Shown: positions 14,660-34,923 of the stretch, in pieces
Layout: every line of letters begins with the position of its first letter
How positions within the stretch are numbered: the first letter of the stretch is position 1
Assembly: GCF_004367585.1 (NCBI RefSeq)
Contig: NZ_CP038015.1
Location: 3,230,001 to 3,294,000, forward strand
Direction of reading: 5' to 3'
DNA length: 64,000 nucleotides
Origin: Paenisporosarcina antarctica
GTDB lineage: Bacteria; Bacillota; Bacilli; Bacillales_A; Planococcaceae
Notes under the pieces: generated by a model
Told to the model about the DNA's origin: nothing
The model's database searches: none
The model's input: only the letters and a program-made list of their open reading frames with translations
Translations under genes and position numbers: made by a program

Positions 14660-15967
14660 TTAAATTATCACTTGCTCTCTAGCAGCTTGTTGAACGACCA
14701 AATATACATCGACGAATGGAACGTCATATTGATAGGCAGCTTTTTTTACATCTTCATATTCAGGATAAATTTTTATTATTTCACCTTCAAGCATACCTAC
14801 TTTGACAGTTATTTTTCCATAAACAGTTTGAATCTCTTTAAACTCCCGAGATAAAATCCGTCTTGACCACTCAGATTTACGAACGCCAAATGTACTTGTT
14901 TCGCGCAATAAAAGTTCCTCTAATACAAAAGTATTTTCTGGTTTTGTTAAAATAGTAATTAACGTCCCTGGTCTGCTTTTTTTCATTGTTACTGGCGTGA
15001 AATAAACGTCTAAAGCTCCTTGATTCAACGCTTTTTCCATTATAAAGCCCATTGCCTCACCAGTGAAGTCATCTAATTGGCACTCAAGAATGGTAATTTG
15101 TTCTTGTTGTGGAGTTTCTTCTACATTAAATAGAACAACTCTTAAAACATTTGGGTGCTCAAAATCTTTTTTCCCTGCTCCATAACCGATTTTCTCCATT
15201 GCTAGCGGAGGCATGTTACCATATTCGTCTACCAAAGCTTTAATGAAAGCAGCACCTGTTGGAGTCGTTAACTCTCCTTTTACATGAAAATCGGCTAAAG
15301 GAACACCAATTAATATTTCTGCGGTTGCTGGGGCAGGAATCGGATAAAGTCCATGTGCTATCATTATTTTTCCATATCCTGTAGGAACAGGTGAGGCAAC
15401 GATTCTACCAATATCTAGACTCTCCAGGGCAAGACAAACACCGATTACATCAATTATCGAATCCATTGCACCCACTTCATGAAAGTGTACTTCTTCCGGA
15501 TCCATCCCATGTATTTTCCCCTCGGCTTCTGCAATAACTCGGAAGACAGCTAAACTTCTTTCCTTTGCTCGAAACGGAAGTTCACTGTTTTCTATCATTT
15601 GTAATATAGTAGAAGCTTTTCGGTGAGAATGACTATGATGTCCAATATCGTGTGAATGTTCGTGACCATGGTTATGAGTGTGGGTGTGCCCGTGATCGTG
15701 GCTATGTTCGTGTGTATGCCCCCTCTCAAGCGCATGAGAAGGAGGTTTCAGTTGCTCCTCAGAATCGGTTACATAAAATCGTAAATCCAACTGCTTAGAT
15801 GATATCCCTTTCTTATCCACTATTTTTATGTTTAATGAAAATGGATCGATTGGTAGTTTCCTTAAATGTTCTCTAATATAGTTAATATCTGCTCCAAGAT
15901 CAATCAGAGCTGACAGAGTCATATCTCCTGAGATTCCTGATTGACAATCAAGAAATAGTAATTTCAT
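14660..15967 (-). CDS. larC: LarC, nickel insertion enzyme for the pincer cofactor
   Basis: A 435-residue CTP-dependent nickel insertase that completes the nickel-pincer nucleotide cofactor of LarA-family racemases. Family features are the start LFLDCQSGISGDMTLSAL, a long His-rich metal-binding stretch (about residues 83-117, H-x-H repeats), EVHFHEVGAMDSIIDVIG, the SPVPTGYG block, GELTTPTGAAF and a C-terminal domain ending near the stop. In Lactiplantibacillus plantarum LarC is made by a programmed frameshift; here it is one uninterrupted frame. It overlaps larB by 20 bp and is the last gene of the larE-larB-larC run, with a repeat copy beyond it. Confidence 0.95.
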   Translation of the reverse strand: MKLLFLDCQSGISGDMTLSALIDLGADINYIREHLRKLPIDPFSLNIKIVDKKGISSKQLDLRFYVTDSEEQLKPPSHALERGHTHEHSHDHGHTHTHNHGHEHSHDIGHHSHSHRKASTILQMIENSELPFRAKERSLAVFRVIAEAEGKIHGMDPEEVHFHEVGAMDSIIDVIGVCLALESLDIGRIVASPVPTGYGKIMIAHGLYPIPAPATAEILIGVPLADFHVKGELTTPTGAAFIKALVDEYGNMPPLAMEKIGYGAGKKDFEHPNVLRVVLFNVEETPQQEQITILECQLDDFTGEAMGFIMEKALNQGALDVYFTPVTMKKSRPGTLITILTKPENTFVLEELLLRETSTFGVRKSEWSRRILSREFKEIQTVYGKITVKVGMLEGEIIKIYPEYEDVKKAAYQYDVPFVDVYLVVQQAAREQVII

Positions 15968-16643
15968 TATTTACCCCCTCTGAAGCAAGTTTAAGGATAA
16001 GCGTCGCTTGATAGGCTGCACCAAATCCGTTATCTATATTGACAACACTCATTCCTGAAGCACAAGAAGATAACATCGCTAGCAAAGGCGTTAACCCTTG
16101 CAGGTGTGCTCCATACCCCACTGAAGTTGGTACGGCTATCACAGGTCTTTGTACTAAACCACCTACGACACTTGGTAAAGCCCCTTCCATTCCAGCAACA
16201 ACAATCAGTACGCTTGCCGTGGTAATCTGATCACGATATGCCAGCAACCTGTCGATTCCAGCTACGCCAACATCATATAATCTATTAACCTTACACCCCA
16301 TCCACTCTGCTGTAATAGCTGCTTCTTCTGCCACAAATAGATCTGAAGTACCAGCACATAACACCATTATTTCTCCGGCAAACTGCTGTTTTGGTTCGCC
16401 ATACAATAAAATACTTGATACACTATCATATTTAGATAAAGGAAAGGCTTCAATTAATAGTTGACCTTTCTCTTTGTCTACTCTCGTGACCATAACTCTC
16501 CCATGTTTTTCAATCAACTTACTCATAATCAAATGAATTTGTTCAATTGATTTTCCTTCACCATAAATAACCTCGGGAAAGCCTTGACGCTTTTCTCTAT
16601 CATAATCAACTTTACTAAAACCTAAATCTTCAAATTTCTCCAT
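15948..16643 (-). CDS. larB: LarB, NaAD carboxylase/hydrolase of pincer cofactor synthesis
   Basis: A 231-residue enzyme that carboxylates nicotinic acid adenine dinucleotide and cleaves it to the pyridinium dicarboxylate mononucleotide, the first step of pincer cofactor synthesis. The PurE-like C-terminal half is clear: VLCAGTSDLFVAEEAAITAE, DVGVAGIDRLL, VVAGMEGALPSVVGGLV, VIAVPTSVGYGA, and the end NIDNGFGAAY. The N-terminal part holds FPEVIYGEGKS. It overlaps larC and starts 59 bp after larE, all on one strand, so the three enzymes are coproduced. Confidence 0.95.
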   Translation of the reverse strand: MEKFEDLGFSKVDYDREKRQGFPEVIYGEGKSIEQIHLIMSKLIEKHGRVMVTRVDKEKGQLLIEAFPLSKYDSVSSILLYGEPKQQFAGEIMVLCAGTSDLFVAEEAAITAEWMGCKVNRLYDVGVAGIDRLLAYRDQITTASVLIVVAGMEGALPSVVGGLVQRPVIAVPTSVGYGAHLQGLTPLLAMLSSCASGMSVVNIDNGFGAAYQATLILKLASEGVNNEITIS

Positions 16644-16702
16644 GTCATCACCAGCTGTCTTAGAATTGATAATATAGTTCTTAATTTATGCTCTATATTC
16701 TT

Positions 16703-17533
16703 TCAGTTAACTTCTGCAAATTTATTTTCCGATAATACCTCGTTCATACTTCCAGTACGATAACCAAGCAAATCAACAGATACATAATTAAAGCCAAGTT
16801 CTGTTAACTTCAATTGTATTTGATCCCGATGCTTCAACAATTCGATAATTTCTTCAGAAGCCACTTCAATTCGAGCAATATTATCATGATAGCGTACACG
16901 GACCATATCGAATCCGAGTTTGACAATGAATTTTTCCGCACGATTAACTTGGTCAATTATTTCTATGCCAAGTTTTGTTCCGTATGGGATTCTAGAAGCT
17001 AGACTACACGATGCCGGTTTATTCCACACTGTTAACTTTAGTTCTTTTGAAAGTTGGCGAACTTCTCGTTTATATAAATTAGCTTCTTGTAAAACGCTAC
17101 GAACTCCTGCTTCGGTTCTTGCTTTCAATCCTGGGCGAAAATCATCCATATCATCCATAATCATTCCGTCTAGAACATAGTCATATCCCAGCTCTTTAGA
17201 TAACTCGTTTAAATGAGAATACAGCATCATCTTGCTGAAATACCAACTATCAGGAGTATTCGCTACTATTCTTTCATCTGCCAATTCTTTGATTTCAGTC
17301 TGATAGACGTTTACTCCTATACTTTCTGCTAATTTGACAGCACCTTCAAATTCTTCTTTACGGAATAATTCTGAAGCAACTACTACCGCAAGTACGTTGT
17401 TCTGCCCTAATTCCTGTTTTGCTCTTGTCAACACTAATGTACTGTCAACTCCGCCTGAAAAAGCTACAATTACGCGATTCATTCCCTGAAGAATTTCTCC
17501 AAGTTTATGGTTTTTTTGATTTGTTTGATACAT
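16703..17533 (-). CDS. larE: LarE, sacrificial sulfur transferase
   Basis: A 276-residue ATP-dependent (PP-loop) enzyme that converts the LarB product to its dithio form. The adenylation loop FSGGVDST is at 25-32, and FRPGLKARTEAGVRSVL and KPASCSLASRIPYG follow. The cysteine of the last motif is residue 176, the same number as the sacrificial sulfur-donating Cys176 known in L. plantarum LarE, so this is probably the one-sulfur-per-protein type. GAGGCC precedes the ATG. It lies 65 bp after the FAH-family gene on the same strand, which makes it likely that the lar genes are the tail of the sugar-acid transcript. Confidence 0.94.
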   Translation of the reverse strand: MYQTNQKNHKLGEILQGMNRVIVAFSGGVDSTLVLTRAKQELGQNNVLAVVVASELFRKEEFEGAVKLAESIGVNVYQTEIKELADERIVANTPDSWYFSKMMLYSHLNELSKELGYDYVLDGMIMDDMDDFRPGLKARTEAGVRSVLQEANLYKREVRQLSKELKLTVWNKPASCSLASRIPYGTKLGIEIIDQVNRAEKFIVKLGFDMVRVRYHDNIARIEVASEEIIELLKHRDQIQLKLTELGFNYVSVDLLGYRTGSMNEVLSENKFAEVN

Positions 17534-17598
17534 ATCATCGGCCTCACTTTACTGTAGTATGTTCTTTTTTTCTTCTATTGAAATTGGTAAAGACTTAG

Positions 17599-18474
17599 TT
17601 AATTGGTTTGTCTGTTTTGAACAAAATTAGTCAGTGTACCAATTTTTTCAATTTTCACATTCATCTCATCCCCGTTTTTCAGCCATACTTTCGGGTTTCT
17701 TCCCATACCTACTCCAGGTGGTGTTCCTGTCGCAATTAAATCACCTGGCTTCAATGTCATAGATTGAGATAAAAATGATATTATTTGCGGGACGGTGAAA
17801 ATTAAATTATTTGTATTCGAATCCTGCATGATTTCGCCATTTAATACAAGTGAAATGGATAACTGGTGTGGATCTCCTACTTCATCTTGTGTCACTACGA
17901 TAGGACCAATTGGGGCAAAGGTATCCGCAGTTTTACCACGTGACCACTGACCATCGTTAAATTGCAAATCACGGGCACTGATGTCATTCATAATCGTATA
18001 ACCGAATACATGGTTATTCGCCTCTTCTTCTGACACACATTTCGCTTCTTTCCCGATAACAACTACAAGCTCAGCTTCAAAATCAACTTCGTTTGAATTG
18101 ATTGGAATTTCGACGGCATCATTGTGACCAATAATCGCATTAGCATATTTAGAAAAAATGACTGGAGAGGCAGGTGGCTCCATACCCGTTTCTTTGCAGT
18201 GGTCAATATAATTTAAACCAACACAAATGATTTTCTCTGGCTGAGAAATTGGCGGAAGGATTTTTACATCTGACAAAGTAAATACAGAATTTTCATTGTT
18301 CCGCTGTTCAAGTAGCTGTTCTGCATGTTTCCTAAGATCGTCACTACCTTCAATAAAAGTTTTTATACACGGCGGAAACCTACTGGGATTAAGCACCGTT
18401 AAACTAATGATTTTATCGTCTTGTACAACACCAATATGTTTTTCTTTTTGTGCGCAAAAAGCGATGATCTTCAT
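17599..18474 (-). CDS. Fumarylacetoacetate hydrolase (FAH) family protein
   Basis: A 291-residue FAH-fold enzyme with an N-terminal cap (1-70) and a catalytic domain. Motifs are IICVGLNYIDHCKETG, PVIFSKYANAIIG, the metal-binding EVDFEAELVVVIGKEAK, GYTIMNDISARDLQ, KTADTFAPIGPIV and LIATGTPPGVG. The glutamates of E-x-E and the later Asp form the usual Mg2+/Mn2+ site. Family members cleave or hydrate 2-keto acids (acylpyruvases, ureidoglycolate lyase-like, 2,4-diketo-3-deoxy-sugar-acid hydrolases). In this operon a beta-diketo-acid hydrolase of a sugar-acid route is the natural guess. The ATG at 18474 follows AGGAGGATTTTAT. Confidence 0.8.
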   Translation of the reverse strand: MKIIAFCAQKEKHIGVVQDDKIISLTVLNPSRFPPCIKTFIEGSDDLRKHAEQLLEQRNNENSVFTLSDVKILPPISQPEKIICVGLNYIDHCKETGMEPPASPVIFSKYANAIIGHNDAVEIPINSNEVDFEAELVVVIGKEAKCVSEEEANNHVFGYTIMNDISARDLQFNDGQWSRGKTADTFAPIGPIVVTQDEVGDPHQLSISLVLNGEIMQDSNTNNLIFTVPQIISFLSQSMTLKPGDLIATGTPPGVGMGRNPKVWLKNGDEMNVKIEKIGTLTNFVQNRQTN

Positions 18475-18581
18475 ATAAAATCCTCCTATTTTCAAATCAT
18501 TCTATGTATGTTCATCTTCTAAAATATGACGTTTATTTTAGAAAAGGAGATTCCCATTTCGGAAACCTCCATTAAATTAAA

Positions 18582-20048
18582 TTAAGACCCTTTAATGAAG
18601 ACTGTTTTGATGGCTGTGTAAAAGTCTTTCGCTGCTTCGCCCTGTTCTCGTGAGCCGGAGCTTGATGCCTTCATCCCACCGAAAGGAGCTTGAAGTTCAA
18701 CACCTGCACTTTCCGCATTAATACGGACAAGGCCAACTTCAATTTCGTCAATAAATTCGAGTATTGAGTTAATGTCTGACGTAAATATTGAAGCGGATAA
18801 TCCATATTTCGTGTTATTTGCTAATTCAATCGCATCTTCAAGATCCCTTGCTTTAATAAGAGCAATAACTGGACCGAAAATTTCGTCCTGTGCAATGTCC
18901 ATCTCTGTCGTTACTTCATCAAAAATTGCAGGTGTAACGAAGTACCCTTTATCATATTTGTCGCCTGTCAGTACTTCCCCACCATGGACAAGATTTGCTC
19001 CTTCTTGATTCCCTTTTTTAATGTATTTTTTAAACGTATTAAACTGCCCTTCACTTGCGCAAGGTCCCAACCAGATACCCTCTTCTAGACCATCGCCGAT
19101 CGTTATTTTTGAGGATTCCTTAATAAGTTTTTGTTTAAATTCATCAAATACTTTTTCTTCAACGATAACGCGGCTTGTAGCAGTGCATTTTTGACCTGAA
19201 GAACGAAACGCCCCACTAATGACACCTTCTACAGCTTGATCAATGTTGGCATTTTTCGTGACGATAACCGGGTTTTTCCCGCCCATCTCAAGTTGAAATT
19301 TAATCCCGCGTGCTGACGCTGATTTCGCTACACTTTGGCCAACACTCTCTGAACCTGTAAATGTGATGGCATTTAATTTCGGATGGTCAATTAACCCTTG
19401 ACCAACTACAGACCCTGAACCTGTAACAAAGTTAAAAACTCCTGCAGGGAATCCTGCTTGTGCAAAGCACTCTACTACTTTTGAAGCTGTTACTGAAGCT
19501 TCACTTGCAGGCTTGAAGACAATAGTGTTCCCGTAAACAAGAGCAGGAGCAATTTTCCAAATAGGAATAGCAACTGGGAAGTTCCACGGGGTAATCACTC
19601 CTACGACACCAAGTGGCGTACGTTTCGTAAACATAAGTGCATCTTTATCTGATGACGGAATGACATCGCCATCTTTGCGCATACCTTCTCCCGCATAGTA
19701 TCGAAGAATCGCAATGCCCCGTGCTGTTTCTCCTTTTGCTTCTGGAAGTGTTTTACCCATTTCTTTTGTCATGGATTCGGCAATATCATTTAAATTCTCT
19801 TCCAAGATATTTGCTGTTTTGAATAACAGTTGTCCACGGGCTGACTGGCCAATCTTACGCCACCCTTTTTTGGCATTGTATGCGGCTTCTACAGCTTGGT
19901 TCAATTCTTCGTTTGTTGAACTTTGTGTATAGCCATGTATTTTTTTATTGGCTGGGTTAATGCTCGCAAATGTTTTACCAGAAGCAGTTTCCACCCATTC
20001 ATTATTAATATAGTTACTATATGTTTTTGCTGAAATTGTAGTTGTCAT
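18582..20048 (-). CDS. gucD: 2-oxoglutarate semialdehyde (2,5-dioxovalerate) dehydrogenase
   Basis: A 488-residue NAD(P)+-dependent aldehyde dehydrogenase, the same length as and closely similar to B. subtilis YcbD/GucD. Shared blocks include [61 protein letters not shown] (catalytic Glu), [13 protein letters not shown] (catalytic Cys) and [20 protein letters not shown]. That enzyme oxidises 2,5-dioxopentanoate to 2-oxoglutarate, the last step of glucarate and oxidative-pentose (Weimberg) routes. The neighbouring dehydratases would supply the substrate. AAAAGGAG lies before the ATG; it starts 20 bp after the UxaA-type gene. Confidence 0.88.
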
Positions 20049-20068
20049 GTTTTGTTAACTCCTTTTTC

Positions 20069-21250
20069 TTAAAATGTTGGGCCAATTCTCCAAATACCAA
20101 AATCGTGCTGTTTCAAGATTTCCGCTTTGGTCAATTTGCCGTTTGATACATCTTGAATTTCCTGCATGATACGATTACCAACCTCAGCAACCGTTTCTTG
20201 ACCATCTATTATCGTACCGGCATCAAGATCCATGTTTTCGTTCATACGTTCAAACATTGGTGTATTTGTAGAAATTTTAATAACAGGGACAATTGGTGAG
20301 CCAGTTGGTGTTCCACGTCCACTAGTAAAGAGAACAACTTGCGCCCCGCCTGCAACCATTCCAGTTAATTGCTCAATATCATGGCCTGGTGTATCCATCC
20401 AAACCAACCCTTTTTTCGTTGGAACCTGTGCGTAATCAATGACTTCTTCCAATCTTGTCGTTCCTGATTTTGTCGCAGCCCCTAGAGATTTTTCTTCGAG
20501 CGAACTGATGCCACCTTCAATATTTCCTGGGCTTGGGTTGCCTGTACGGATATCAACGCCCATTTTGATGGAGCGATTCTCCATCATTTTAATGACCGCA
20601 TATGCTTTTTTGGCAACCTGATCGTTAGCAGCACGGTTAGCAAGCAAATGCTCTGCACCGATTAACTCAGTCGTTTCTGCTAAAATTGCCGTTCCGCCTT
20701 GATTGACGATTAAGTCACTTGTGCGTCCAACTGCTGGATTTGCGGAAATACCAGAGCATGCATCTGACCCACCACATTCTGTTCCAACGATTAGTTCACT
20801 AAAATCACATAGCTCTCGTTGCACCATTGATGCTTCTTGTACCATTTTCACTGCGATTTTCGCCACCTCAGCAATTGTTTGAAGTGTTCCACCATTGTCC
20901 TGTATAGATACCGTTTGCACAGGCTTACCGCATTTAGCAATCTCGTCGGCAACACTATGTGCCTGATGAGTTTCACAACCAAGACCTAGGACGATGACAC
21001 CGTATACATTGGGATTCATCCCCATCCCTGCATATGTCCTAAACGTTTGATCGTAATCGATACCAACTTGTGCACAGCCATGTTGGTGAATGAAAGTGAC
21101 CGTTCCACTTACTAATTCCGTCACTCGTTGTGCTGTTTGTGTTGCACATGTAATCGTGGGTAATATCAATACGTGATTACGTACACCGACACGGCCATCT
21201 GCACGGCGATAACCCCAAAATTGCATCTTGTCGTTAAACAACCTTGTCAC
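20069..21250 (-). CDS. UxaA/SuyB-type lyase, large subunit
   Basis: A 393-residue catalytic part of the altronate/galactarate dehydratase family. Signature blocks are WGYRRADGRVGVRNHVLILP, HQHGCAQVG, GLGCETHQA, GTECGGSDACSGISANPAVG, GNPSPGNIEGGISSLEEKS, MDTPGHDIE and TSGRGTPTGSPI; the cysteines fit the iron-binding site. The SAF domain is a separate gene, overlapping by 17 bp upstream, instead of being fused as in E. coli UxaA. The split is also that of the sulfolactate sulfo-lyase SuyAB. Context favours a sugar-acid dehydratase. Confidence 0.82.
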   Translation of the reverse strand: MTRLFNDKMQFWGYRRADGRVGVRNHVLILPTITCATQTAQRVTELVSGTVTFIHQHGCAQVGIDYDQTFRTYAGMGMNPNVYGVIVLGLGCETHQAHSVADEIAKCGKPVQTVSIQDNGGTLQTIAEVAKIAVKMVQEASMVQRELCDFSELIVGTECGGSDACSGISANPAVGRTSDLIVNQGGTAILAETTELIGAEHLLANRAANDQVAKKAYAVIKMMENRSIKMGVDIRTGNPSPGNIEGGISSLEEKSLGAATKSGTTRLEEVIDYAQVPTKKGLVWMDTPGHDIEQLTGMVAGGAQVVLFTSGRGTPTGSPIVPVIKISTNTPMFERMNENMDLDAGTIIDGQETVAEVGNRIMQEIQDVSNGKLTKAEILKQHDFGIWRIGPTF

Positions 21251-21530
21251 CTCTTCCTCTTTTGCCCTCTAAATTGTGAACATGGACGTGTTCCCCAACT
21301 TGAATCGCGACCACGGCCGCTCCGATTACTTCTCCATATTTAATAATGTCTGCCCCCTGCTCAATTGCTTTGACAGCAAATTTATGCCCAAAGCTAATTG
21401 GTTCAATTATTGTCACCGAGATTTCTATTTCGTTGACTTTTACAATGACAGTAGTGTGTTCAGGAATCTCATTCAAAGCAACAGCAACACTATCTTTCTC
21501 ACTTAGATAAAGCGTTTTATATTTGCTCAT
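21234..21530 (-). CDS. UxaA/SuyA-type lyase, small SAF-domain subunit
   Basis: A 98-residue SAF domain. Typical strands are DSVAVALNEIPEHTTVIV, the conserved ISFGHKFAVKAIEQGADIIKYGEVIGAA block (shown to be G-H-K-F-A and I-K-Y-G) and the terminal VGEHVHVHNLEGKRGRGD, where histidines of V-H-V-H-N may reach the active site. It pairs with the overlapping large subunit to make one dehydratase/sulfo-lyase-type enzyme. TTAAGGAG precedes the ATG; it begins 11 bp after the next upstream gene. Confidence 0.85.
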   Translation of the reverse strand: MSKYKTLYLSEKDSVAVALNEIPEHTTVIVKVNEIEISVTIIEPISFGHKFAVKAIEQGADIIKYGEVIGAAVVAIQVGEHVHVHNLEGKRGRGDKVV

Positions 21531-21541
21531 TTAAGCACTCC

Positions 21542-22432
21542 TTAAACTACTTGTTTGGCTTTTTCACTTAGGACAACAGGATTATTTAAAATACCGATAC
21601 CTGGAATTTCAATTTCGATACGGTCATGTTCGTTTAATGTGAAGTCATTTGGTGGCACAATACACGTTCCTGTAAGCAGGACAGTACCATCAAAGATATG
21701 ATTATCAAGCGTTAAATAATGGACGAGCTCTTCCAGTTTACGTTTCAATTGATTTACCTGCGCATCGCCACTAAAAATCAACTCGTCATTGCGATAAATT
21801 CGGCAAATAATTGTAAATTCGTATGGATCTAAGACCGCCTCTTTCAATAAAATCGATGGTCCGATAGAGCAAGAGTTTTTCCATACTTTCGCCTGTGGCA
21901 AGTAAAGTGGATTTTCTCCTTCAATATCACGGCAACTCATGTCATTTCCAACAGTGTAACCGAGAATTTCACCCTCTTTATCAATGACCAGACCAAGCTC
22001 AGGCTCTGGAATTTGCCAGTTTGAATCTGAGCGTAAATTAACAGGATCATCCGGTCCTACAGTTCTTGCAGCGGTAGACTTGAAGAATATTTCTGGTCGC
22101 ACTGCATCATACACTTTGTCGTAGAACGTTTCAGCGTCAAGCTTTCCTTGTGTCGCTTCATAGTTGCGCGCTTCTTTGCTTTTTTTGTATGTCACACCAG
22201 CTGCCCAAACTTCTGGAGCATCTATTGGTGTTGTCAATTGTAGACCTTCTAATGGTTGTTTAACTTCTTCATCCGCCATTTGTTTGACTATATCAAACGC
22301 GGTTTTGTTAATTTTACGTGCTTCCGCAACCAAAGAAATAAAGTCTGCATATGGAAGATCGAATACTTCATTTTCAGTCGTAACAGCGGCAAGCTGTTTT
22401 GCATTTTCTTTTATATAGCGAATAATCCTCAT
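21542..22432 (-). CDS. FAH-family 2-keto-3-deoxypentonate dehydratase candidate
   Basis: A 296-residue FAH-superfamily protein whose blocks APEVWAAGVTYKKSKEAR, RPEIFFKSTAARTVGPDDPV, the metal-binding IPEPELGLVIDKEGEILGYT, GNDMSCRDIEGENPLYLPQA and LTGTCIVPP resemble the archaeal/bacterial 2-keto-3-deoxy-arabinonate/xylonate dehydratases. Those convert a 2-keto-3-deoxypentonate to 2,5-dioxopentanoate, exactly the substrate of the adjoining dehydrogenase. This places it as step two of a Weimberg-type oxidative pentose-acid route. GGGGGATTTTATT precedes the ATG. Confidence 0.75.
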   Translation of the reverse strand: MRIIRYIKENAKQLAAVTTENEVFDLPYADFISLVAEARKINKTAFDIVKQMADEEVKQPLEGLQLTTPIDAPEVWAAGVTYKKSKEARNYEATQGKLDAETFYDKVYDAVRPEIFFKSTAARTVGPDDPVNLRSDSNWQIPEPELGLVIDKEGEILGYTVGNDMSCRDIEGENPLYLPQAKVWKNSCSIGPSILLKEAVLDPYEFTIICRIYRNDELIFSGDAQVNQLKRKLEELVHYLTLDNHIFDGTVLLTGTCIVPPNDFTLNEHDRIEIEIPGIGILNNPVVLSEKAKQVV

Positions 22433-22519
22433 AATAAAATCCCCCTAATAGTTGGTGTTATTCGTAATTCTTATTTACACATAAATTTGTTCCTACTATT
22501 AATCATGAAGATCCTTTAC

Positions 22520-23287
22520 CTAATTAGACTGAAAACCAAAGCCCAATTTTTTAGATATTTTACCAGCAGTTATTTTTAAATTCTCAACACTTTTTTCCAA
22601 TTCATGATTTGTTATCTGACTTGCAGCTGTCGAACTACTAATAGCGGCGATTACTTGACCTGTGTAATCATGGACTGGCATGGCTACACAATAAACGCCA
22701 GGCTCATTTTCTTCATTGTCAATCGCATATCCTCGCTCTCGAATCGTATTCAATTCAATCAAAAAGGATCCCTTATCAGTAAGCGTATTTTGTGTTTGCT
22801 GAATGTATTCATAACCATCCAAGATCTTTTCTAGCTCATCAGGAGTTTTAAATGCAACAAGAGCTTTTCCAACACCACTACTGTGAATCGGAACCCTTCT
22901 TCCAATCTTAGAATACAAAACGGTAGCATTTGAGTTTTCCACCTTATCGATATATATTCCTTCTTTTCCGTCAAGGATAACAAGGTGGACTGTTCGTTTT
23001 GTTTCCTTTGAGAGCTCAACAAGATACTCTTTGGCTGCTGTCCGTAAATCTAAGCTTTGGATAACATAGTTACCTCGTTCAAAAAGCTTCATTCCCAAAC
23101 AATATTTCCCGTTTTCGGGGTTTTGTTCAATGTAATGATGCATTTGCAATGTTTTTAATAGAGAATGGACTGTGCTTTTATGAAGGCCCATTCGTTCATT
23201 TATTTCTGTTAATTTTAGTTCTTTATCGTACTCGTCAAATAAATCGAGTATTCTTAGAGCGCGGTCTACAGATTGTATAATTGGCAT
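22520..23287 (-). CDS. IclR-family transcriptional regulator 1
   Basis: A 255-residue regulator. The N-terminal winged helix (SVDRALRILDLFDE, EINERMGLHKSTVHSLLKTL) is followed by the IclR effector domain (RTVHLVILDGKEGIYIDKVE, RVPIHSSGVGKALVAF, RGYAIDNEENEPGVYCVAMP, GQVIAAISSS). It lies inside the minus-strand catabolic run, between the FAH and U32-like genes, 87 bp before the former. The start at 23287 (AAAAGGATG, spacing about 8) is favoured over an ATG nine bases upstream that would overlap the ribosome site. It is a paralogue of the regulator at 41.8 kb and probably senses a keto-deoxy acid or aldonate. Confidence 0.88.
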   Translation of the reverse strand: MPIIQSVDRALRILDLFDEYDKELKLTEINERMGLHKSTVHSLLKTLQMHHYIEQNPENGKYCLGMKLFERGNYVIQSLDLRTAAKEYLVELSKETKRTVHLVILDGKEGIYIDKVENSNATVLYSKIGRRVPIHSSGVGKALVAFKTPDELEKILDGYEYIQQTQNTLTDKGSFLIELNTIRERGYAIDNEENEPGVYCVAMPVHDYTGQVIAAISSSTAASQITNHELEKSVENLKITAGKISKKLGFGFQSN

Positions 23288-23359
23288 GTTGTTCATCCTT
23301 TTCTCATCACTTACCGTGAGTTTTCATCACTGCAAGTCTATACGTATATCAATGACATC

Positions 23360-24304
23360 TCAAGAATGAACTACTGTCCCTACAGGAACGCCTAAGCCTT
23401 CTGCACCTTTTTGAGATGTTTTTAAGTCTGGAGCATAGCGCTTAAGAAGATCAAGGCCAATTTTGGCACGACGAACCCGTTCTTTGCACAACGCAATTGA
23501 AACACTTTCAAGATGAGTCCCAGAGGGATAAATATTTGGTGAATTTCTCAAGCCAAATTTAATGTACACCGGTGCAGCGACTCGGATAATCTCAGCGATT
23601 TCATAATGACGCACATATCCTCCGATGTCATCTGGAGCTTCAATATAAATGTCGATTGGCATATGAATTGCCTGACGAATTTCCGATAATTTAGCTAGTG
23701 TTAAATCAGTTGGAACATTGTACGTATCTGCTCCTGCATCTTGAATGAGTTTAATTGAAACTGGATTAGACTGTGCCATTTGAACAGATATTTTCACTAC
23801 AAGATCCGATGGTAACTCCCCAGCCTTTTTAAATTCATTAACTAGCGTTAACAACCCCTCGTCTGAAACAAGAATGCTACGGATACCGAAGTGACATGCG
23901 CGTTTGACATCTTCAATTGCATAGACCAGTTGATCCATACCTTGTGAACGAAGTCCAGCAATTTTCCCGCTACTTGCATGTTGCATTGAAGTAACATCAT
24001 AGGTACCACGAGGCCCTACAAATAGACTCACTTCTAAATTTTCTCTTTGACCAATTTCAGCCATTTGTTTTAACTCTTCATCAGTTAAAAGCATAATTCC
24101 GCTTCCTTGAGAAATGCGATGAATATACACATCATATTTTTCGCATGCTTCAATTAAAGCTTCAAAAGAAGCCGGTCCTTCTACACTTGGAAGTTCAACC
24201 CGATACTGGGCACCGTCAGGGAAAGTCTTTGTAGAAGAAGGTATATCTTGGGTACCTCCTGCAGGGTAACCTAGTTTCTCAATAAAATCGCGAGTTTCTT
24301 TCAT
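23360..24304 (-). CDS. Conserved barrel-like protein of unknown role (U32-like)
   Basis: A 314-residue soluble protein. The pattern of alternating strands and helices (YDVYIHRISQGSGIMLL, NLEVSLFVGPRGTYD, FGIRSILVSDEG, LVVKISVQMAQSNPVSIKLI, DAGADTYNVPTDLT, MPIDIYIEAPDDIGGYVRHY) suggests a TIM barrel. I associate it loosely with proteins annotated as U32-like peptidases, but the U32 signature is absent, so peptidase activity is not supported. The end (KTSQKGAEGLGVPVGTVVHS) is distinctive. Its place between an aldonate dehydratase and the IclR gene suggests a lyase, aldolase or epimerase step. AGGAGGATTTATT precedes the ATG. Confidence 0.6.
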   Translation of the reverse strand: MKETRDFIEKLGYPAGGTQDIPSSTKTFPDGAQYRVELPSVEGPASFEALIEACEKYDVYIHRISQGSGIMLLTDEELKQMAEIGQRENLEVSLFVGPRGTYDVTSMQHASSGKIAGLRSQGMDQLVYAIEDVKRACHFGIRSILVSDEGLLTLVNEFKKAGELPSDLVVKISVQMAQSNPVSIKLIQDAGADTYNVPTDLTLAKLSEIRQAIHMPIDIYIEAPDDIGGYVRHYEIAEIIRVAAPVYIKFGLRNSPNIYPSGTHLESVSIALCKERVRRAKIGLDLLKRYAPDLKTSQKGAEGLGVPVGTVVHS

Positions 24305-24328
24305 AATAAATCCTCCTATCCCAATTCA

Positions 24329-26521
24329 CTATTTAGTATTTAGCACTAAAGTTTGAACGTCTGTTTTATAATCTAGTATTGCCTCTTCAGCCACTGCGAT
24401 TGGAACAACTCCATTGGCTGCATCCGTGTGGCCAATCATACGATTACTTGCCGCAACTAGTCTTTGACGTTTGTTAATTAACTCAAGTCTTGTCTGTGCG
24501 AGATCCGTTCTGTGTGCTTTAGTTTTATCGAATTCGAATTCTAATGTGCCTCTTCGCAATGCCGCTTCATCAATGAAATCGATTTTGCGCTCACGTAAAC
24601 TTAAATATAATAAATCACCTGTTTGAAGGAATAAAATTCCCCCACCTTCTTTTGCTTCAGGTGTCATGTGACCAATAGCAGCGCCATAAGTAACACCCGA
24701 ATATCGACCGTCACTTATTAGTGTTGCAAGACGTTTCAGCTGGCGGTTTGCATTGATATGTTGCATCGATGTAAACATTTCAGGCATTCCGAAAGCTACA
24801 GGACCTTGACCAGATACAATAATGGCAATTTTCAGCACAGCATCTTTAACCATTTTATCGAAAAGGGTATCATAGTCATCAGCTTTCCACTCATTGTATT
24901 GGCTAGGTGAATTCTCTCTTAGTAGCGCTATCATGTTTTCGTGACTGAAACTTCTATTCACTTTTAATTTTGAAAGAAGTTCAGCGTCTAGTAAATTACG
25001 AATGGCTTCATCTTCATTTTCAAAGTAAAGAACAAATGCCACTTTCTTATCAAATTGATCTAATTGCAGTGTTGTCATTCCACTAATTTTCACAACAGCA
25101 GTTTCAAAGAAATTCCCAGTTAATACATCCACCCCACTAAAAGCACGTTTAGGCTTCGATAAAATCACTTGATTGTCTTTTACATTATCAGCAGGTAGAC
25201 TATCAGTTTTCACTAATCGGTCACGCCATGTTCCTCCAGTAACAGTTGGTGCATCTAAATCCATTGGCACTCCATTTTGAAGAAGTTCATAGAATAAGCT
25301 CTCCATCCCCCTGCTATCACTGTCACAACATTGCATCGCCAGAGAGAAGATATCTCGACCTTCCGTCAAGCTATAGTTGAATAAATCAGGGATTGGGTGA
25401 GAATGATGGATTTCATCTAAATCATCCAGACTGAATTTATAACCACCGTATAACATCCCAGCTACAATATGCATCATTAAATTCGTTGATCCTCCTGAAG
25501 CACTGTGTATACGGATTGCATTTTTAATGTTCGTTGCCATGATATTTGCAGCTCCATAGACAGGATTATTAATCATTATTGCCATGCTATCTAGTGCTTC
25601 ATTTACTTGTAATTGATTAGGAGATTCCGTAAGAAGTTCTAAAGATGGATGAACCAATCCCATTCCTGCTACTAGATGACGAGAACTATTCCCTGTCCCA
25701 TTGAAGGCACAAACCCCGCCACTACCATCACATGTTGCGACTGCTAAACGTTTTTCAAAATCTTTGTGTTCAACTTTTGTGATAATTCCTCTTTCAGTTG
25801 CACGTTCAAGTACTCCTTGAAATGCTGTGTTGGAAGAACATTGTAGAATATAAGCCATCGCATCTCTTAAATCGTCCGCAATGTCCAAAGCTTGATTTTT
25901 TTCAGCCATTTTAGCTACTTCTTCCAACTCTGCAAATAAATCAGTGGGAATCGTACCGCCTTGTAATACATGTGATGGTGCAAATGTTGCGAAGAATGGC
26001 GCTTCACCTCGATACTGGCGAATACGATCCAGATGAACTAGAGCACTGACAACTCCAAGTGGTTGCTTATCACACCCTTGGATGACAAACGCGCCATGAT
26101 AGCTATGAGCTTCCAACTGATTGACAACCATTTGTGCTACAGCATTTCTGCTTTGAAGTGAATAACTCATGCCTTGGTTACTTTGTGCCGTCCCATCACA
26201 CATAACAGGGGTTGAGAAATAGAAGGGAACTCCACCATTTTGCCAAATACGAATTGCTGCATGTGAAGATGTTTTAAAATCCATAATGTGAGCAGGGTGA
26301 TCGGAAGACCCACCAATAATTGCAATTCGCGGTGCATTTTCCTCTAATCGGTTATATATTTCTTCTAGAGTCCAATCCGGTGCTGGACCTTTGTATTCGG
26401 AACCAAGAGTTTGTTTCGAACGATCAAGCAAACCGGCAACTGTGATTGGTTCATTCGCTTTTCCTTGTACGTTGTCTCTATACGGATTTACTTGATTGCT
26501 AATATTCGGATAATGTGACAT
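24329..26521 (-). CDS. IlvD/EDD-family sugar-acid dehydratase
   Basis: A 730-residue Fe-S dehydratase of the IlvD/EDD superfamily, closest in style to the YjhG/YagF (D-xylonate dehydratase) branch and longer than dihydroxy-acid dehydratases (about 560). Cluster-ligand cysteines appear in the order VMCDGTAQSNQGM, VIQGCDKQPLGVV and CDGSGGVCAFNGTGNSSRH, with SASGGSTNLMMHIVAG and the C-terminal RLATLISDGRYSG block. The expected reaction is dehydration of a pentonate or hexonate to the 2-keto-3-deoxy acid. The ATG at 26521 follows TTGGAGG at 26528-26534. It is expressed with dctP1 upstream, across a hairpin. Confidence 0.82.
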   Translation of the reverse strand: MSHYPNISNQVNPYRDNVQGKANEPITVAGLLDRSKQTLGSEYKGPAPDWTLEEIYNRLEENAPRIAIIGGSSDHPAHIMDFKTSSHAAIRIWQNGGVPFYFSTPVMCDGTAQSNQGMSYSLQSRNAVAQMVVNQLEAHSYHGAFVIQGCDKQPLGVVSALVHLDRIRQYRGEAPFFATFAPSHVLQGGTIPTDLFAELEEVAKMAEKNQALDIADDLRDAMAYILQCSSNTAFQGVLERATERGIITKVEHKDFEKRLAVATCDGSGGVCAFNGTGNSSRHLVAGMGLVHPSLELLTESPNQLQVNEALDSMAIMINNPVYGAANIMATNIKNAIRIHSASGGSTNLMMHIVAGMLYGGYKFSLDDLDEIHHSHPIPDLFNYSLTEGRDIFSLAMQCCDSDSRGMESLFYELLQNGVPMDLDAPTVTGGTWRDRLVKTDSLPADNVKDNQVILSKPKRAFSGVDVLTGNFFETAVVKISGMTTLQLDQFDKKVAFVLYFENEDEAIRNLLDAELLSKLKVNRSFSHENMIALLRENSPSQYNEWKADDYDTLFDKMVKDAVLKIAIIVSGQGPVAFGMPEMFTSMQHINANRQLKRLATLISDGRYSGVTYGAAIGHMTPEAKEGGGILFLQTGDLLYLSLRERKIDFIDEAALRRGTLEFEFDKTKAHRTDLAQTRLELINKRQRLVAASNRMIGHTDAANGVVPIAVAEEAILDYKTDVQTLVLNTK

Positions 26522-26564
26522 TATGTGAACCTCCAATTCCTTAATTTATTGCCTTAAACTTCAG

Positions 26565-26612
26565 TACAAGTAAGCAGGAGAGAATATTAATCTCTTCCCC
26601 TCCTTACTTGTA
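26565..26612 (-). promoter_or_regulatory. Intercistronic stem-loop after dctP1
   Basis: Arms TACAAGTAAG (26565-26574) and CTTACTTGTA (26603-26612), with inner pairing GGAG/CTCC. There is no T tract on either side, so it looks more like an mRNA-stabilising or processing element than a terminator. This would let the binding-protein gene be expressed above the enzymes downstream. Confidence 0.55.
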
Positions 26613-26638
26613 AAGTGATTAAGCCTCTTAATTAAATT

Positions 26639-27688
26639 TTAGCTACCAGCGATTTCTTCAATGGCATTTAAATATTCATCCACAAGTTCAGCGCCGATAC
26701 CATCAGCATGCTTATCAATAACTGGTTTTACAGCCTTTTGGAAACGTTTATGTTCCTCAGGAGTAACTTCTGTATAGGACATACTTTTTTTCAACTTCTC
26801 TAGACTTTCATCAGCAACTTCGCGGTTACGCTGACGGTTAAACTCACCCGCTTCAACTGCTGCTTCAGATAAAATCGTCTGTTGTTCTTCTGTTAATTTG
26901 TCCCAAATTGTTTTGCTGAACAAGAAAATAAACGGCGTGTATACATGATTGGTATTAGATACATGTTTTTGAACTTCTGCATACTGACTTAACTCAATTG
27001 TCGGAAATGGATTTTCTTGTCCATCAACAGTACCTTGTTGCATAGCTGTAAATAATTCTGTAAAGGCCATTGGTGTTGGGTTTGCTCCAAGAGCTTTCCA
27101 AGCATCTAAATGAATCTCATTTTCCATTGTTCGAATTTTCAGACCATCTACATCTTCAATTTTTGCAACTGGTCGAATGTCATTCGTTAAATTACGGAAA
27201 CCATTTTCCCACCAAGCAAGTGCAACAAGATTTTGACCTTCAACCATATCAAGCATTTTATCTCCAAATTTTCCATCTAGTAATTCATCCGCTACTTTTT
27301 CGTTCGGAATTGTAAATGGTAAATCAAATACACCAAACTCTTTTACAAAGTTGACTAATGGTGAAGTTGATGGAATCGTGATATCTAATGAGCCAAGTTG
27401 TAACATTTCAATTGCTGAACGGTCATCGGCAAGTTGTCCAGAATGGTAGAGTTCAATTTCAAAATCATCAGTTTTACTTTCAACTAACTCTTTAAATTTT
27501 TCAACTCCTTCGTATTCAGGATGTTGATCATTAACCCCAATGCTTACTCGCAGAATTTGTGGTTTACCAGAAGTAGATGCAGTAACTTTTTCTTCCGAAC
27601 CTTCAGAAGCATTACCTCCACTGCAAGCGGCTAAAAATAGTGCTGTAACCATGACTAAACTACTCAATTTAACCCATTTTCTTTTCAT
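26639..27688 (-). CDS. TRAP transporter solute-binding protein DctP, paralogue 1
   Basis: A 349-residue extracytoplasmic receptor. The lipoprotein signal ends LFLAACSGG (lipid Cys about 21). The DctP fold follows: VSIGVNDQHPEYEGVEKFKE, HSGQLADDRSAIEMLQLGS, PLVNFVKEFGVFDLPF, WWENGFRNLTNDIRP, and the substrate-clamping arginine strand DGLKIRTMENEIHLDAWKAL, then MQQGTVDGQENP. It is highly similar to the DctP at 38.7 kb. No DctQ or DctM adjoins it, so it probably docks on the membrane pair at 36.7-38.5 kb. It is the first gene of the downstream catabolic unit. Confidence 0.92.
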   Translation of the reverse strand: MKRKWVKLSSLVMVTALFLAACSGGNASEGSEEKVTASTSGKPQILRVSIGVNDQHPEYEGVEKFKELVESKTDDFEIELYHSGQLADDRSAIEMLQLGSLDITIPSTSPLVNFVKEFGVFDLPFTIPNEKVADELLDGKFGDKMLDMVEGQNLVALAWWENGFRNLTNDIRPVAKIEDVDGLKIRTMENEIHLDAWKALGANPTPMAFTELFTAMQQGTVDGQENPFPTIELSQYAEVQKHVSNTNHVYTPFIFLFSKTIWDKLTEEQQTILSEAAVEAGEFNRQRNREVADESLEKLKKSMSYTEVTPEEHKRFQKAVKPVIDKHADGIGAELVDEYLNAIEEIAGS

Positions 27689-27775
27689 ATGAACATCCCC
27701 CAGTATTGTTTTCTGACTTGCACATTATTTGAGCCAATTCCGTAACAACCTTTACACCTCCCTTCAAAAAAATAT

Positions 27776-27791
27776 ATAGTTCTATATTATA
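27776..27791 (-). promoter_or_regulatory. Promoter/operator element before dctP1
   Basis: ATAGTTCTATATTATA, 88 bp upstream of dctP1, recurs exactly at 30620-30635. On the minus strand it reads TATAAT followed at once by ATAGAACTAT (ATAG-AA-CTAT, a small palindrome). That is a -10 box fused to a candidate operator. No good -35 is evident, which would fit activator dependence. Confidence 0.5.
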
Positions 27792-27969
27792 AAACTCAGT
27801 TCTCGTTTATAAGTAGTTTTAATTAGATAAAACAACGGTTACAACGCTGCAAAAATATATTAATTCTAAATCGTTAGACTTTTTAATTTTAACAAATAAT
27901 ACATTATATTGTAATTTTAGTCAATTTTTTCGAGAGCTTTGTCTACATAAAATCATTTATACTTTAAAT

Positions 27970-29223
27970 CTAATGATTAAAGTCCCATTCCATTGGATCA
28001 CTTAATATTTGAATATCCCTCAATCCCCTTGAATCTTCCAGTAAACTTTCAGAAATCCAAATCTCTCCAATGTCGAGTGTGTTCTTTATACGTACTACCT
28101 TTGCCTTCGTTAAATCCAATGCATTGCATGTTTTAATTGCAGCTTTAACAGCTAGCTCGTTGCTTTCTAACACCATGGGGAGTTTGATGACGTCGATAAC
28201 AGTACTAGTAAGTGCATTTGCATAGCCCTTTTCCCACTTGATCTTATCGTAAACCTCTTTTGTAGTAATATCAGCCAATCCAATTCCATTGGCATTGCCT
28301 TCTGATTTTTCCGTTAAGCTTAATACTGCAATACGTTTCACATCAGGCCCGCCACTTGCATATGGAGTAGGGTAACGGCCAGTAATATTAGGGTCCATTC
28401 CATCCCCCGAAATTTCTTTCCCAAGTTCATTTACTACCAAGACATCAATTGAATCGAATTGAATTTTTGGCATTAAAGATTTTGCCTCTTTTAGCAATAA
28501 AGACTCTTTTTCTAATAATTCTTCTATAGGAATAGCCATAACTTTTGCAGGACGATCATACGCATTTTCAATGGTTGCTAATCCAAATATGAGTGGTGTT
28601 TTTTCAATGGATATTTTTGTCATATCGAGTATGTGTTCCGCCATATACTTAAAACTAAATGAATGGGCAGCTTCAGCACCTTTTTGTTTGCCAAGGCCGA
28701 TTGTAATCATTTTCATTAGTCCACTCTCTACGGGTCCTCTAAAACAAGTATGTGGTTTCACCCTGTTTATAACAACGATTTTATCAGCTTCGTATGCGTT
28801 CTTATCAAAATATACAGGCAAGCCATTTGGCAATTCTCCAATCTTTACTACTTCCATTGAAGATTTTACAGGTGCCCCAACTGTTTCTTCTTCCACTCCA
28901 AGTTGTTTCAAAACACCTCTCTGTCCTTCTGCAGTTGCTCCCCCATGGCTACCCATAGCAGGAACAATAAACGGGTTCCCGCCAACACCTTTAATCGCAT
29001 TTACAGTTTCTCTAACCAGAACAGAGATATCCGCAACACCTCTACTTCCTACAGCAATAGCTACGTTATCTCCTTCTGAAATTCTTTCTAATACATTTGA
29101 ATCATTTAATGTTTTTCGGACTTCAAAGCTAACATCTGCCAATTCTGGAGCATGGAATCTTTGTTTGATTTTAATCATTTTAGGAACAGGTATATCTTTC
29201 AATAATTCTTCAATAATGCTCAT
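27970..29223 (-). CDS. LarA-family nickel-pincer racemase/epimerase homologue
   Basis: A 417-residue protein of the lactate racemase (DUF2088) superfamily. Blocks are AVGSRGVADISVLV, AMGSHGGATAEGQRG, INRVKPHTCFRGPVESGLMK, ITIGLGKQKGAEAAHS and GKEISGDGMDPN. Relative to L. plantarum LarA (Arg75, His108, His174, pincer-bearing Lys184, Ni-ligand His200), this protein offers R61, H93, H158, K171 and H187 with nearly the same spacings. The lar cofactor genes lie 10 kb further along the same strand, and all neighbours are aldonate genes. A C2 epimerase of a sugar acid is therefore more likely than lactate racemase. It stands alone between a promoterless-looking gap and dctP1. Confidence 0.82.
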   Translation of the reverse strand: MSIIEELLKDIPVPKMIKIKQRFHAPELADVSFEVRKTLNDSNVLERISEGDNVAIAVGSRGVADISVLVRETVNAIKGVGGNPFIVPAMGSHGGATAEGQRGVLKQLGVEEETVGAPVKSSMEVVKIGELPNGLPVYFDKNAYEADKIVVINRVKPHTCFRGPVESGLMKMITIGLGKQKGAEAAHSFSFKYMAEHILDMTKISIEKTPLIFGLATIENAYDRPAKVMAIPIEELLEKESLLLKEAKSLMPKIQFDSIDVLVVNELGKEISGDGMDPNITGRYPTPYASGGPDVKRIAVLSLTEKSEGNANGIGLADITTKEVYDKIKWEKGYANALTSTVIDVIKLPMVLESNELAVKAAIKTCNALDLTKAKVVRIKNTLDIGEIWISESLLEDSRGLRDIQILSDPMEWDFNH

Positions 29224-29264
29224 GTCGATTAGTTCTCCAATCTTCTAAAAATTGATAGTAAATT

Positions 29265-29273
29265 TAGAACTAT
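29265..29273. promoter_or_regulatory. Partial operator-like match before the LarA homologue
   Basis: TAGAACTAT, the reverse of the ATAGTTCTA core seen before dctP1 and the YvcT-like gene, lies 42 bp upstream of this start. It is weak evidence by itself because the 9-mer also occurs by chance elsewhere in the window. Confidence 0.3.
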
Positions 29274-29288
29274 TTTTCTCTTAATCTA

Positions 29289-29583
29289 GTTATTCAAATA
29301 ATTGATTTTCGGCCCCTTCAGTCATGCCAACAGCGTCACCACCGTTTTTTTACTACACCTATTGATTCACCTAAGTTTTTTCATCTGAGCTTGCAATCGC
29401 TCTTCCAACCGCATCGGTTCCTCTACCAGTGGAATTTGGAACAATTAGTGTTGCTGCTATAGTAGGGAAATCAATCTTCTTGCTGCTATCACTTGCAGAA
29501 ACTACTTCATCGCCTTTAGAACTAAAAGCCCCTACAATTAACATTGCAATTATAATTGCATACAACAGACAAGATTTCCTCAA
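29289..29583 (-). pseudogene. Decayed TctC-type solute-binding protein gene
   Basis: The first 70 codons (29583 down to 29371) keep a signal-like segment (LLYAIIIAMLIVGAF) and the tripartite-tricarboxylate receptor block ATLIVPNSTGRGTDAVGRAI, close to the LIVPFxxGGGTD pattern of TctC/Bug proteins. After a stop, traces continue in shifting frames (LGESIGVV, GGDAVGMTEGAEN) and then vanish. Most of the roughly 320-residue protein is missing, and no TctA/TctB is present. This is the relic of an earlier transporter, now replaced by the TRAP system. Confidence 0.65.
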
Positions 29584-29600
29584 TTTTGTTAAACCAATTT

Positions 29601-30584: not shown

Positions 30585-30619
30585 AACGTTTACCCCTCTC
30601 ATTCATCTGAACACATTAA

Positions 30620-32845: not shown

Positions 32846-32874
32846 TGTATGCACTCCTTAGATATGAATTGATT

Positions 32875-33774: not shown

Positions 33775-34923
33775 TCACCACTCCGCAATGGAACCGTCTT
33801 TATGTCGCCATACTGGATTTTTCCAGTTGTGTCCAATTTTTGCTTGTTCGCGGACAAATTCTTCATTTATCGATATACCAAGTCCAGGGTTTTTCAGCAT
33901 ATCAACATAACCTTCTTTGTACTCGAATACTTGTTTGTCGTTCAAATAATCTAGTAAATCACTTCCTTGGTTATAGTGAATGCCTAAGCTTTGCTCTTGG
34001 ATAAACACGTTATGGGATGTTGCGTCAACTTGCAAACACGATGCCAAAGCGATTGGACCAAGTGGGCAATGGGGAGCAACTGCAACATCATAAGCCTCAG
34101 CCATAGCAAAAATTTTCTTGCATTCCGTGATTCCTCCAGCATGGGATAAATCCGGCTGAATGATATCTACATAACCGTCTTGTAATATCTTCTTAAAATC
34201 CCATTTCGAGTACATTCTTTCACCAGTGGCAATTGGTATATTGGTTACACGCGCAATATCGCGAAGCGCTTCGTTATTCTCAGGCAATACAGGTTCTTCA
34301 ATGAACATGGGTCTAAATTGTTCCAATTCTTTAACCAATATTTTAGCCATCGGTTTATGAACACGACCATGGAAATCAATCCCAATTCCAATATATTCGC
34401 CAACAGCCTCTCGAACAGCTGCAATTCTCGCAACAGCTTGGTCAACTTTTTCATATGAATCTATATATTGAAGCTCTTCGGTACCGTTCATTTTGACTGC
34501 AGTAAACCCTGCTTTTACTGCCTCAGACGCTGCTTTTCCTACATCATTTGGACGGTCTCCGCCAATCCATGAATAGACACGGACAGAATCCCGGCAAGCC
34601 CCTCCCATTAGATCAGCGACGGGTGCATTATGGTATTTCCCTTTAATATCCCACAAGGCTTGGTCAATACCGGAAATTGCACTCATCAAAATCGGACCTC
34701 CACGATAAAAACCTGAACGGTACATCATTTGCCATAAGTCCTCTATTCGGCGAGGATCTTTTCCAATCAAATAGTCACTTAGTTCTTCAACGGCTGCTTG
34801 GACTGTTCTTGCACGTCCTTCTACAATCGGCTCTCCCCAACCTGAAATACCTTCATCAGTTTCGATTTTCAAAAATAGCCATCTTGGTGGCACGATAAAT
34901 GTTTCCATTTTTGTGATTTTCAC
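33775..34923 (-). CDS. dgoD: D-galactonate dehydratase-type enolase (DgoD-like)
   Basis: A 382-residue member of the mandelate racemase branch of the enolase superfamily, the same length as E. coli DgoD. Blocks are [115 protein letters not shown] and [12 protein letters not shown]. The D/E/E metal ligands and catalytic His are in place. It dehydrates D-galactonate (or a close aldonate) to 2-keto-3-deoxygalactonate, handing it to the kinase and aldolase next door. GTG start with GAGAGG upstream. Confidence 0.9.

Follow-up and report, generated by a model that had tools for sequence, protein, structure and literature searches.

Gene content of the locus

We analyzed a stretch of 64,000 nucleotides of the Paenisporosarcina antarctica genome (NCBI RefSeq assembly GCF_004367585.1, contig NZ_CP038015.1, positions 3,230,001–3,294,000; hereafter, the window), in which a gene for a LarA homologue and the genes larE, larB, and larC, assigned to the synthesis of the nickel-pincer nucleotide (NPN) cofactor, all lie on the minus strand within one sugar-acid catabolic run. 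The families, the residues, and the gene linkage were taken from the sequence, and every reaction, direction, and substrate given below is inferred. The genes of the run are listed in the order of transcription, followed by one gene of an adjoining module.

27970..29223, minus strand: LarA homologue, NPN isomerase group 22 (LarAH22), predicted aldonate C2-epimerase (NF052515, Lar_N, and structural model)
26639..27688, minus strand: dctP1, TRAP solute-binding protein (PF03480, 307 bits)
24329..26536, minus strand: long IlvD/EDD-family dehydratase (735 amino acids), predicted pentonate/aldonate dehydratase (PF00920, 119 bits)
23360..24304, minus strand: U32-peptidase-like predicted TIM barrel (PF01136, 29 bits; cut-off, 22.4)
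22520..23296, minus strand: IclR-family regulator, KdgR-like (PF01614, 186 bits; NF011671, 204 of 275 bits)
21542..22432, minus strand: FAH2, FAH-family protein, predicted 2-keto-3-deoxypentonate (KDP) dehydratase (236 bits to 2q18)
21234..21530, minus strand: SAF-domain small subunit of a UxaA/GarD-type dehydratase (PF08666, 31 bits; cut-off, 21)
20069..21250, minus strand: UxaA/GarD-family dehydratase, catalytic subunit (PF20629, 333 bits; 252 bits to GarD 6u7l)
18582..20048, minus strand: alpha-ketoglutarate semialdehyde dehydrogenase, KGSADH (NF042993, 835.9 bits; cut-off, 770)
17599..18495, minus strand: FAH1, second FAH-family protein (PF01557, 260 bits; NF053535, 244 of 500 bits)
16703..17533, minus strand: larE, sulfur insertion in NPN synthesis (TIGR00268, 360.4 bits; cut-off, 150)
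15948..16643, minus strand: larB, first step of NPN synthesis (NF033503, 295.3 bits; cut-off, 175)
14660..15967, minus strand: larC, nickel insertion in NPN synthesis (TIGR00299, 221.5 bits; cut-off, 90; NF052512, 149.4 bits; cut-off, 50)
33775..34923, minus strand: galactonate dehydratase (DgoD) of the adjoining hexonate module (NF010624, 714.5 bits; cut-off, 311)

From LarAH22 to larC, the successive gaps are 281, 102, 24, 63, 87, 11, −17, 20, 86, 65, 59, and −20 bp, negative values denoting overlaps. The first-pass annotation had placed the LarA homologue just before dctP1 and larE-larB-larC 65 bp after the last catabolic genes, all on the same strand, and these coordinates and strands are correct. 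Terminator-like and promoter-like sites were close to the numbers expected from shuffled sequence (53 against 50.9 and 14 against 11.4), and because these numbers are near chance, co-transcription of the run is neither demonstrated nor excluded.

Upstream of the LarA homologue (29224–29600) is a short open piece of 75 residues that by eye resembles a decayed solute-receptor gene but matched no Pfam family. A second sugar-acid module occupies 33775–41441 and contains the galactonate dehydratase gene, relatives of the 2-keto-3-deoxy-6-phosphogluconate (KDPG) aldolase and 2-keto-3-deoxygluconate (KDG) kinase genes, a TRAP transporter, and Gnd-related and KduD genes. The model of the U32-like protein was of moderate confidence (pLDDT 77), and its structure matches were generic barrels that pointed to no role.

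Family, residues, and fold of the LarA homologue

The LarA homologue scored 559.9 bits on NF052515, the model of NPN isomerase group 22 (cut-off, 400), with the runner-up family at 33.7 bits, and 39.6 bits on Lar_N (PF09861; cut-off, 23.3); it also passed DUF362 weakly (25.7 bits; cut-off, 24). On the lactate racemase model NF033504, it reached 20.2 of 460 bits, far under the cut-off, and judged by these scores, it is not a lactate racemase. Residues were mapped by aligning the protein with LarA structures and with a profile built from 14 lactate-racemase-family relatives; in these alignments, R61, H93, H158, K171, and H187 align with R75, H108, H174, K184, and H200 of LarA. These five residues, corresponding to the NPN-binding arginine, lysine, and histidine and the two catalytic histidines, were invariant in an alignment of 26 sequences and likewise in every one of the 119 group-22 sequences aligned, which rules out the idea that group 22 is a degenerate form of LarA without the NPN residues. 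The profile alignment reaches only residue 280, stopping just before Y294, Q295, and K298 of LarA; near this point, K269, S272, G273, D277, and N279 are invariant in the 119 sequences. By its testable residues, the protein looks like a LarA-type isomerase. The first-pass annotation is thus supported in placing NPN genes and a LarA homologue together in this catabolic run, and the homologue has the complete set of catalytic residues.

The predicted structure (pLDDT 89) had 19 matches in the PDB at E ≤ 0.001, 18 of them titled LarA-type and the remaining one being 4nar of Thermotoga maritima (14% identity), which we take to be GntE2 (GntE). The matches had TM-scores of 0.47–0.56 and root-mean-square deviations of 6–11 Å, so either the domain arrangement or the C-terminal part differs.

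A second, canonical larA elsewhere in the genome, a possibility raised by the first-pass annotation, was not found at E ≤ 0.001, where the single Lar_N match in the genome is the LarA homologue itself. The genome likewise has a single LarC match. Among the 261 genomes of the order, LarC was found in 17, a group-22 protein in 17, and both in 13, the genomes with LarC and no group-22 protein being G485, G497, G536, and G595; in the phylum sample, group 22 exceeded the cut-off in 85 of 398 genomes. It is not established that LarA-family enzymes are the sole users of the pincer cofactor, as a passage of PMC11796402 reports larB, larE, and larC without a larA homologue in about 15% of the genomes analyzed there. 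Four group-22 genomes of the order (G633, G634, G532, and G500; loci L061–L064) had no LarC match at E ≤ 1e-10. The LarA homologues of these loci keep all five key residues. Their neighbors include a short-chain dehydrogenase/reductase and two aldehyde dehydrogenases, and inspection by eye suggests an iron alcohol dehydrogenase as well.

Genomic context of group 22 in other genomes

We compared 120 loci encoding group-22 proteins, consisting of all 16 further matches in the order, 24 picked from the best matches in the phylum, and the best 80 of 583 stretches; because the loci were chosen by best match, the sample leans toward window-like sequences. Several pairs of loci come from one and the same genome (e.g., L066/L117, L069/L128, L071/L158, and L051/L135). 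In the context count, 13 loci under 15 kb were left out, leaving 107. The controls were 20 loci of the lactate-racemase family (17 over and three under the NF033504 cut-off), of which one of 8 kb was left out, and 20 arbitrary stretches of the same genomes chosen by coordinate shift. At least one sugar-acid query gene occurred in 88 of the 107 group-22 loci (at least two in 76, none in 19), compared with one of the 19 lactate-racemase-family loci (at least two in none) and one of the 20 arbitrary stretches, where it was a weak DgoD match of 77 bits (p 1e-10). Part of the query set was derived from these loci, which were themselves selected for good matches and include near-copies; the evidence therefore lies in the contrast, which is not a blind test, and not in the p-value. 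The linkage of the LarA homologue to sugar-acid genes that had been noticed in the window therefore recurs elsewhere.

A tree was built from the window and 118 of the 120 loci, giving 119 rows, to which labels A and B were assigned from the neighboring genes. In this set, genome G606, of the same family as the window, encodes a LarAH22 identical to that of a Sporosarcina record of the Caryophanaceae. The LarA homologue of the window fell in a clade of 20 rows with a support of 100, and a long IlvD gene was present in 16 of these rows (15 loci and the window). In all 15 of the clade loci that have both genes, long IlvD shares the strand of LarAH22, and in 12 of the 15 it is directly downstream, at −26 to 188 bp. 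A second clade of 63 rows, outside which the window protein lies, carried label B on 50 rows, meaning that a gluconokinase-like gene, or a mannonate-oxidoreductase-like gene together with a glucuronate isomerase gene, was nearby. Single representatives from this clade, which includes Sporosarcina and Paenibacillus, fell short of the cut-off for gluconokinase (500 of 649 bits) and for D-mannonate oxidoreductase (279 of 281 bits) and passed that for glucuronate isomerase (663 bits; cut-off, 387). Mannonate to gluconate is the step given for GntE2 in a passage of PMC7583248, and judged by the neighboring genes, the context of the second clade matches this step, served here by an enzyme of another group. 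Because one clade neighbors dehydratase genes and the other gluconokinase- or mannonate-type genes, group 22 appears to consist of aldonate 2-epimerases whose partners differ from clade to clade.

Predicted reaction and pathway

On the basis of its family, residues, and neighbors, we consider the LarA homologue of the window to be probably (roughly 0.6) an NPN-dependent aldonate C2-epimerase, most likely for pentonates. The closest solved structure to FAH2 is the Sulfolobus 2-keto-3-deoxy-D-arabinonate dehydratase (2q18), and this likeness, together with KGSADH scoring over its cut-off, fits the C5 route II described in PMC6336799. According to passages of that paper, D-xylonate and L-arabinonate are dehydrated by IlvD/EDD enzymes and D-arabinonate by a UxaA/GarD enzyme, and FAH enzymes convert KDP to the semialdehyde. 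Both types of dehydratase are present in the window. By textbook stereochemistry, the IlvD/EDD substrates have the 2R,3S configuration and D-arabinonate has 2S,3R; the corresponding C2 epimers are D-lyxonate or L-ribonate for the former and D-ribonate for the latter.

In the pathway that we propose, LarB, LarE, and LarC from the same run would make the NPN cofactor for the LarA homologue, which would invert C2 by the LarA mechanism, the two histidines serving as acid and base and a hydride passing to and from the pincer. The epimerase would act on acids that the dehydratases cannot use. To supply the IlvD/EDD enzyme it would, for example, turn D-lyxonate into D-xylonate or L-ribonate into L-arabinonate, and to supply the UxaA/GarD enzyme it may turn D-ribonate into D-arabinonate. 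The dehydratases would yield KDP, which the FAH dehydratase would convert to alpha-ketoglutarate semialdehyde and KGSADH to alpha-ketoglutarate. With the epimerase, both acids of each C2 pair could thus enter the pathway.

A wider version of this scheme is tentative at best. It would be a stereochemical funnel in which one nickel-pincer epimerase serves two dehydratases whose C2/C3 preferences are opposite, xylonate-type acids going to IlvD/EDD and arabinonate-type acids to UxaA/GarD, so that the full set of four D-pentonates (xylonate, lyxonate, arabinonate, and ribonate) would enter one 2-keto-3-deoxy-D-pentonate pool and proceed to alpha-ketoglutarate. Aldonate 2-epimerases would then have a second large family in group 22, divided into a pentonate and a mannonate/gluconate branch.

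Several observations weigh against the pentonate epimerase reading. Long IlvD was found in 20 of the 261 genomes of the order and, in the 398-genome phylum sample, in the genome of the window alone, and 18 of those 20 genomes have no neighboring LarAH22 and larEBC. The contrast between loci with and without LarAH22 described in the next section amounts to three independent pairs, none contrary, and is not significant, and its Fisher values ignore kinship. Long IlvD reaches no NCBIfam cut-off: its best score is 187 of 644 bits, and it has 106 of 808 bits on the D-xylonate dehydratase model and 101 of 882 bits on that of L-arabinonate dehydratase. Within the clade of the window, four of the 19 relatives (L100, L103, L105, and L106) do not carry the long-IlvD label, and at L103 and L105 none of the module's other genes was seen either. 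In the window itself, dctP1 separates LarAH22 from long IlvD, the 281-bp gap between LarAH22 and dctP1 contains a promoter-like site (27924–27896) and a terminator-like site, a terminator-like hairpin (18570–18546) lies between KGSADH and FAH1-larEBC, and a hexonate module adjoins the run. Finally, a passage of PMC7583248 states that genomic context does not always predict the activity of LarA homologues.

Loci with and without LarAH22

The two genomes of the order in which long IlvD and LarAH22 occur at the same locus are that of the window and G481. We compared the 15 clade loci with LarAH22, the window excluded, with the 18 long-IlvD loci without it, around which stretches of 14–20 kb were inspected; three of the 18 genomes (G613, G633, and G634) carry another group-22 protein elsewhere. 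FAH2 was present in all 15 of the loci with LarAH22 and in 16 of the 18 without it, and KGSADH in 12 and 18, respectively; an IclR gene was found in 14 of the 18. In contrast, larE (9/15), larB (7/15), larC (7/15), and the UxaA-type dehydratase gene (11/15) occurred only beside LarAH22 (0/18 each), and the pattern was reversed for KDG kinase and KDPG aldolase (3/15 with LarAH22, 13/18 without). In G505, close copies of IlvD, U32, IclR, and KGSADH occur without LarAH22, larEBC, and the UxaA-type gene, and also without FAH2 in the stretch. Relatives of the U32-like gene were seen at 10 of the 15 loci with LarAH22 and at 13 of the 18 without it.

Within the limits set by kinship, this pattern suggests an extension of the pathway in which the epimerase, its cofactor genes, and the second dehydratase tend to occur as a set. 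The epimerase thus appears to be an accessory, broadening the range of substrates, and not an integral step of the pathway. The suggestion of the first-pass annotation that epimerization is an integral step is too strong in view of the 18 genomes; its suggestion of a widened substrate range fits the accessory pattern.

Alternative substrates

A hexonate is an unlikely but serious alternative, in which the enzyme would convert D-talonate to D-galactonate for the adjoining module of DgoD, KDG kinase, and KDPG aldolase, or D-mannonate to D-gluconate. The high score of DgoD at 33775, with kinase and aldolase genes in its module, speaks for such a role, as do the loci L093 and L097, where DgoD lies between LarAH22 and long IlvD, and L069, where it follows LarAH22; the 50 rows with label B in the other clade point the same way. 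However, among the 15 loci of the window's clade, DgoD was found in seven, KDG kinase in three, and KDPG aldolase in three, compared with FAH2 in 15 and KGSADH in 12 for the C5 route. As for mannonate and gluconate, the genome encodes UxuA, UxaC, and GntK elsewhere, so mannonate has another route, and because the window protein also lies outside the clade with gluconokinase-like neighbors, these two acids are less likely as its substrates.

It is improbable that the enzyme racemizes glycerate, lactate, or another small 2-hydroxy acid produced further down the pathway and thereby feeds nearby D-2-hydroxyacid dehydrogenases. Two 2-hydroxyacid dehydrogenase genes are indeed present at 29601–30602 and 31853–32854, and at L056 one such gene comes immediately after LarAH22. 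However, relatives of the second dehydrogenase occur in 14 of the 18 long-IlvD loci without LarAH22 and in eight of the 15 with it, so this gene does not depend on LarAH22; moreover, the gene most often found immediately next to LarAH22 in the clade encodes a dehydratase, and the lactate racemase score is low. An aldarate enzyme (for glucarate, galactarate, or arabinarate) feeding the UxaA/GarD-type dehydratase and KGSADH is highly improbable: although the sole PDB match of the UxaA/GarD protein is GarD 6u7l and a passage of PMC11770544 reports slow epimerization of arabinarate by LarAH32, the DapA-type gene required is absent among the genes typed in 14660–41441, three proteins encoded at other loci reach 92–98 of 374 bits on the model of keto-deoxyglucarate dehydratase, FAH2 points to KDP, and L093, L095, L099, and L102 retain LarAH22 and long IlvD but have no UxaA-type gene within the portion of the locus covered.

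Comparison with known systems and implications

The predicted pentonate epimerase resembles the D-gluconate 2-epimerases GntE (LarAH19 and LarAH20), as described in passages of PMC7583248, in belonging to the LarA superfamily, in its predicted use of NPN and action on C2 of an aldonate, and in its sugar-acid context; it differs in belonging to group 22. The GntE signature given in a passage of PMC11770544 is E,V at the positions of F175/F176 and A,H at those of W358/T359, whereas at the first of these pairs the window protein has T159 and C160, counted from the second catalytic histidine. Across the 119 sequences, the residues after this histidine are T in 116 and A in 91. The profile alignment has gaps opposite F175/F176, so the loop may differ, and E,V are absent either way. 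By score, too, the window protein falls in group 22 and not in a published gluconate-epimerase group. With the lactate racemase LarA (5huq), which is served by LarB, LarE, and LarC, the window protein shares the fold, the two catalytic histidines, and the lysine and histidine that hold NPN, but the identity over the model is 14–15% and there is no counterpart of F175/F176.

Judged by homology, the run as a whole resembles the Weimberg-type non-phosphorylative pentonate pathway, Route II, of PMC6336799 in having IlvD/EDD and UxaA/GarD dehydratases, an FAH-type KDP dehydratase, and an alpha-ketoglutarate semialdehyde dehydrogenase. It differs in that the relevant passages of that paper describe no dedicated C2-epimerase, and in that the IlvD here is a long subfamily outside the assigned models; as a side reaction, these passages mention an enolase-type dehydratase that partly converts D-arabinonate to D-ribonate. 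A LarA subfamily with a carbohydrate context is also represented by the single-histidine homologues of group 17 (passages of PMC12611868); in contrast to these, which have no second catalytic histidine, group 22 keeps it in 119 of 119 sequences.

In Table 1 of PMC7583248, the number 22 is absent among the 13 assayed homologues, if the NCBIfam numbering is the same as that of the paper, and the terms "LarAH22" and "group 22" do not occur in the main texts of PMC11770544, PMC7583248, and PMC11796402. The nine enzymes of PMC11770544 carry a different numbering and may include members of group 22. Among the open-license papers that our searches listed, we recognized none on group 22, on its assay, or on a nickel pentonate epimerase. 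What is new here is a class of reaction, proposed and supported from sequence, for a group of a known superfamily for which these searches showed no assay. The conserved partner dehydratase gives a short and testable list of substrates. If the proposal is true, nickel-pincer enzymes would be a general way of extending sugar-acid catabolism to C2 epimers, and the presence of larEBC beside a dehydratase gene would help to predict the use of C2 epimers.

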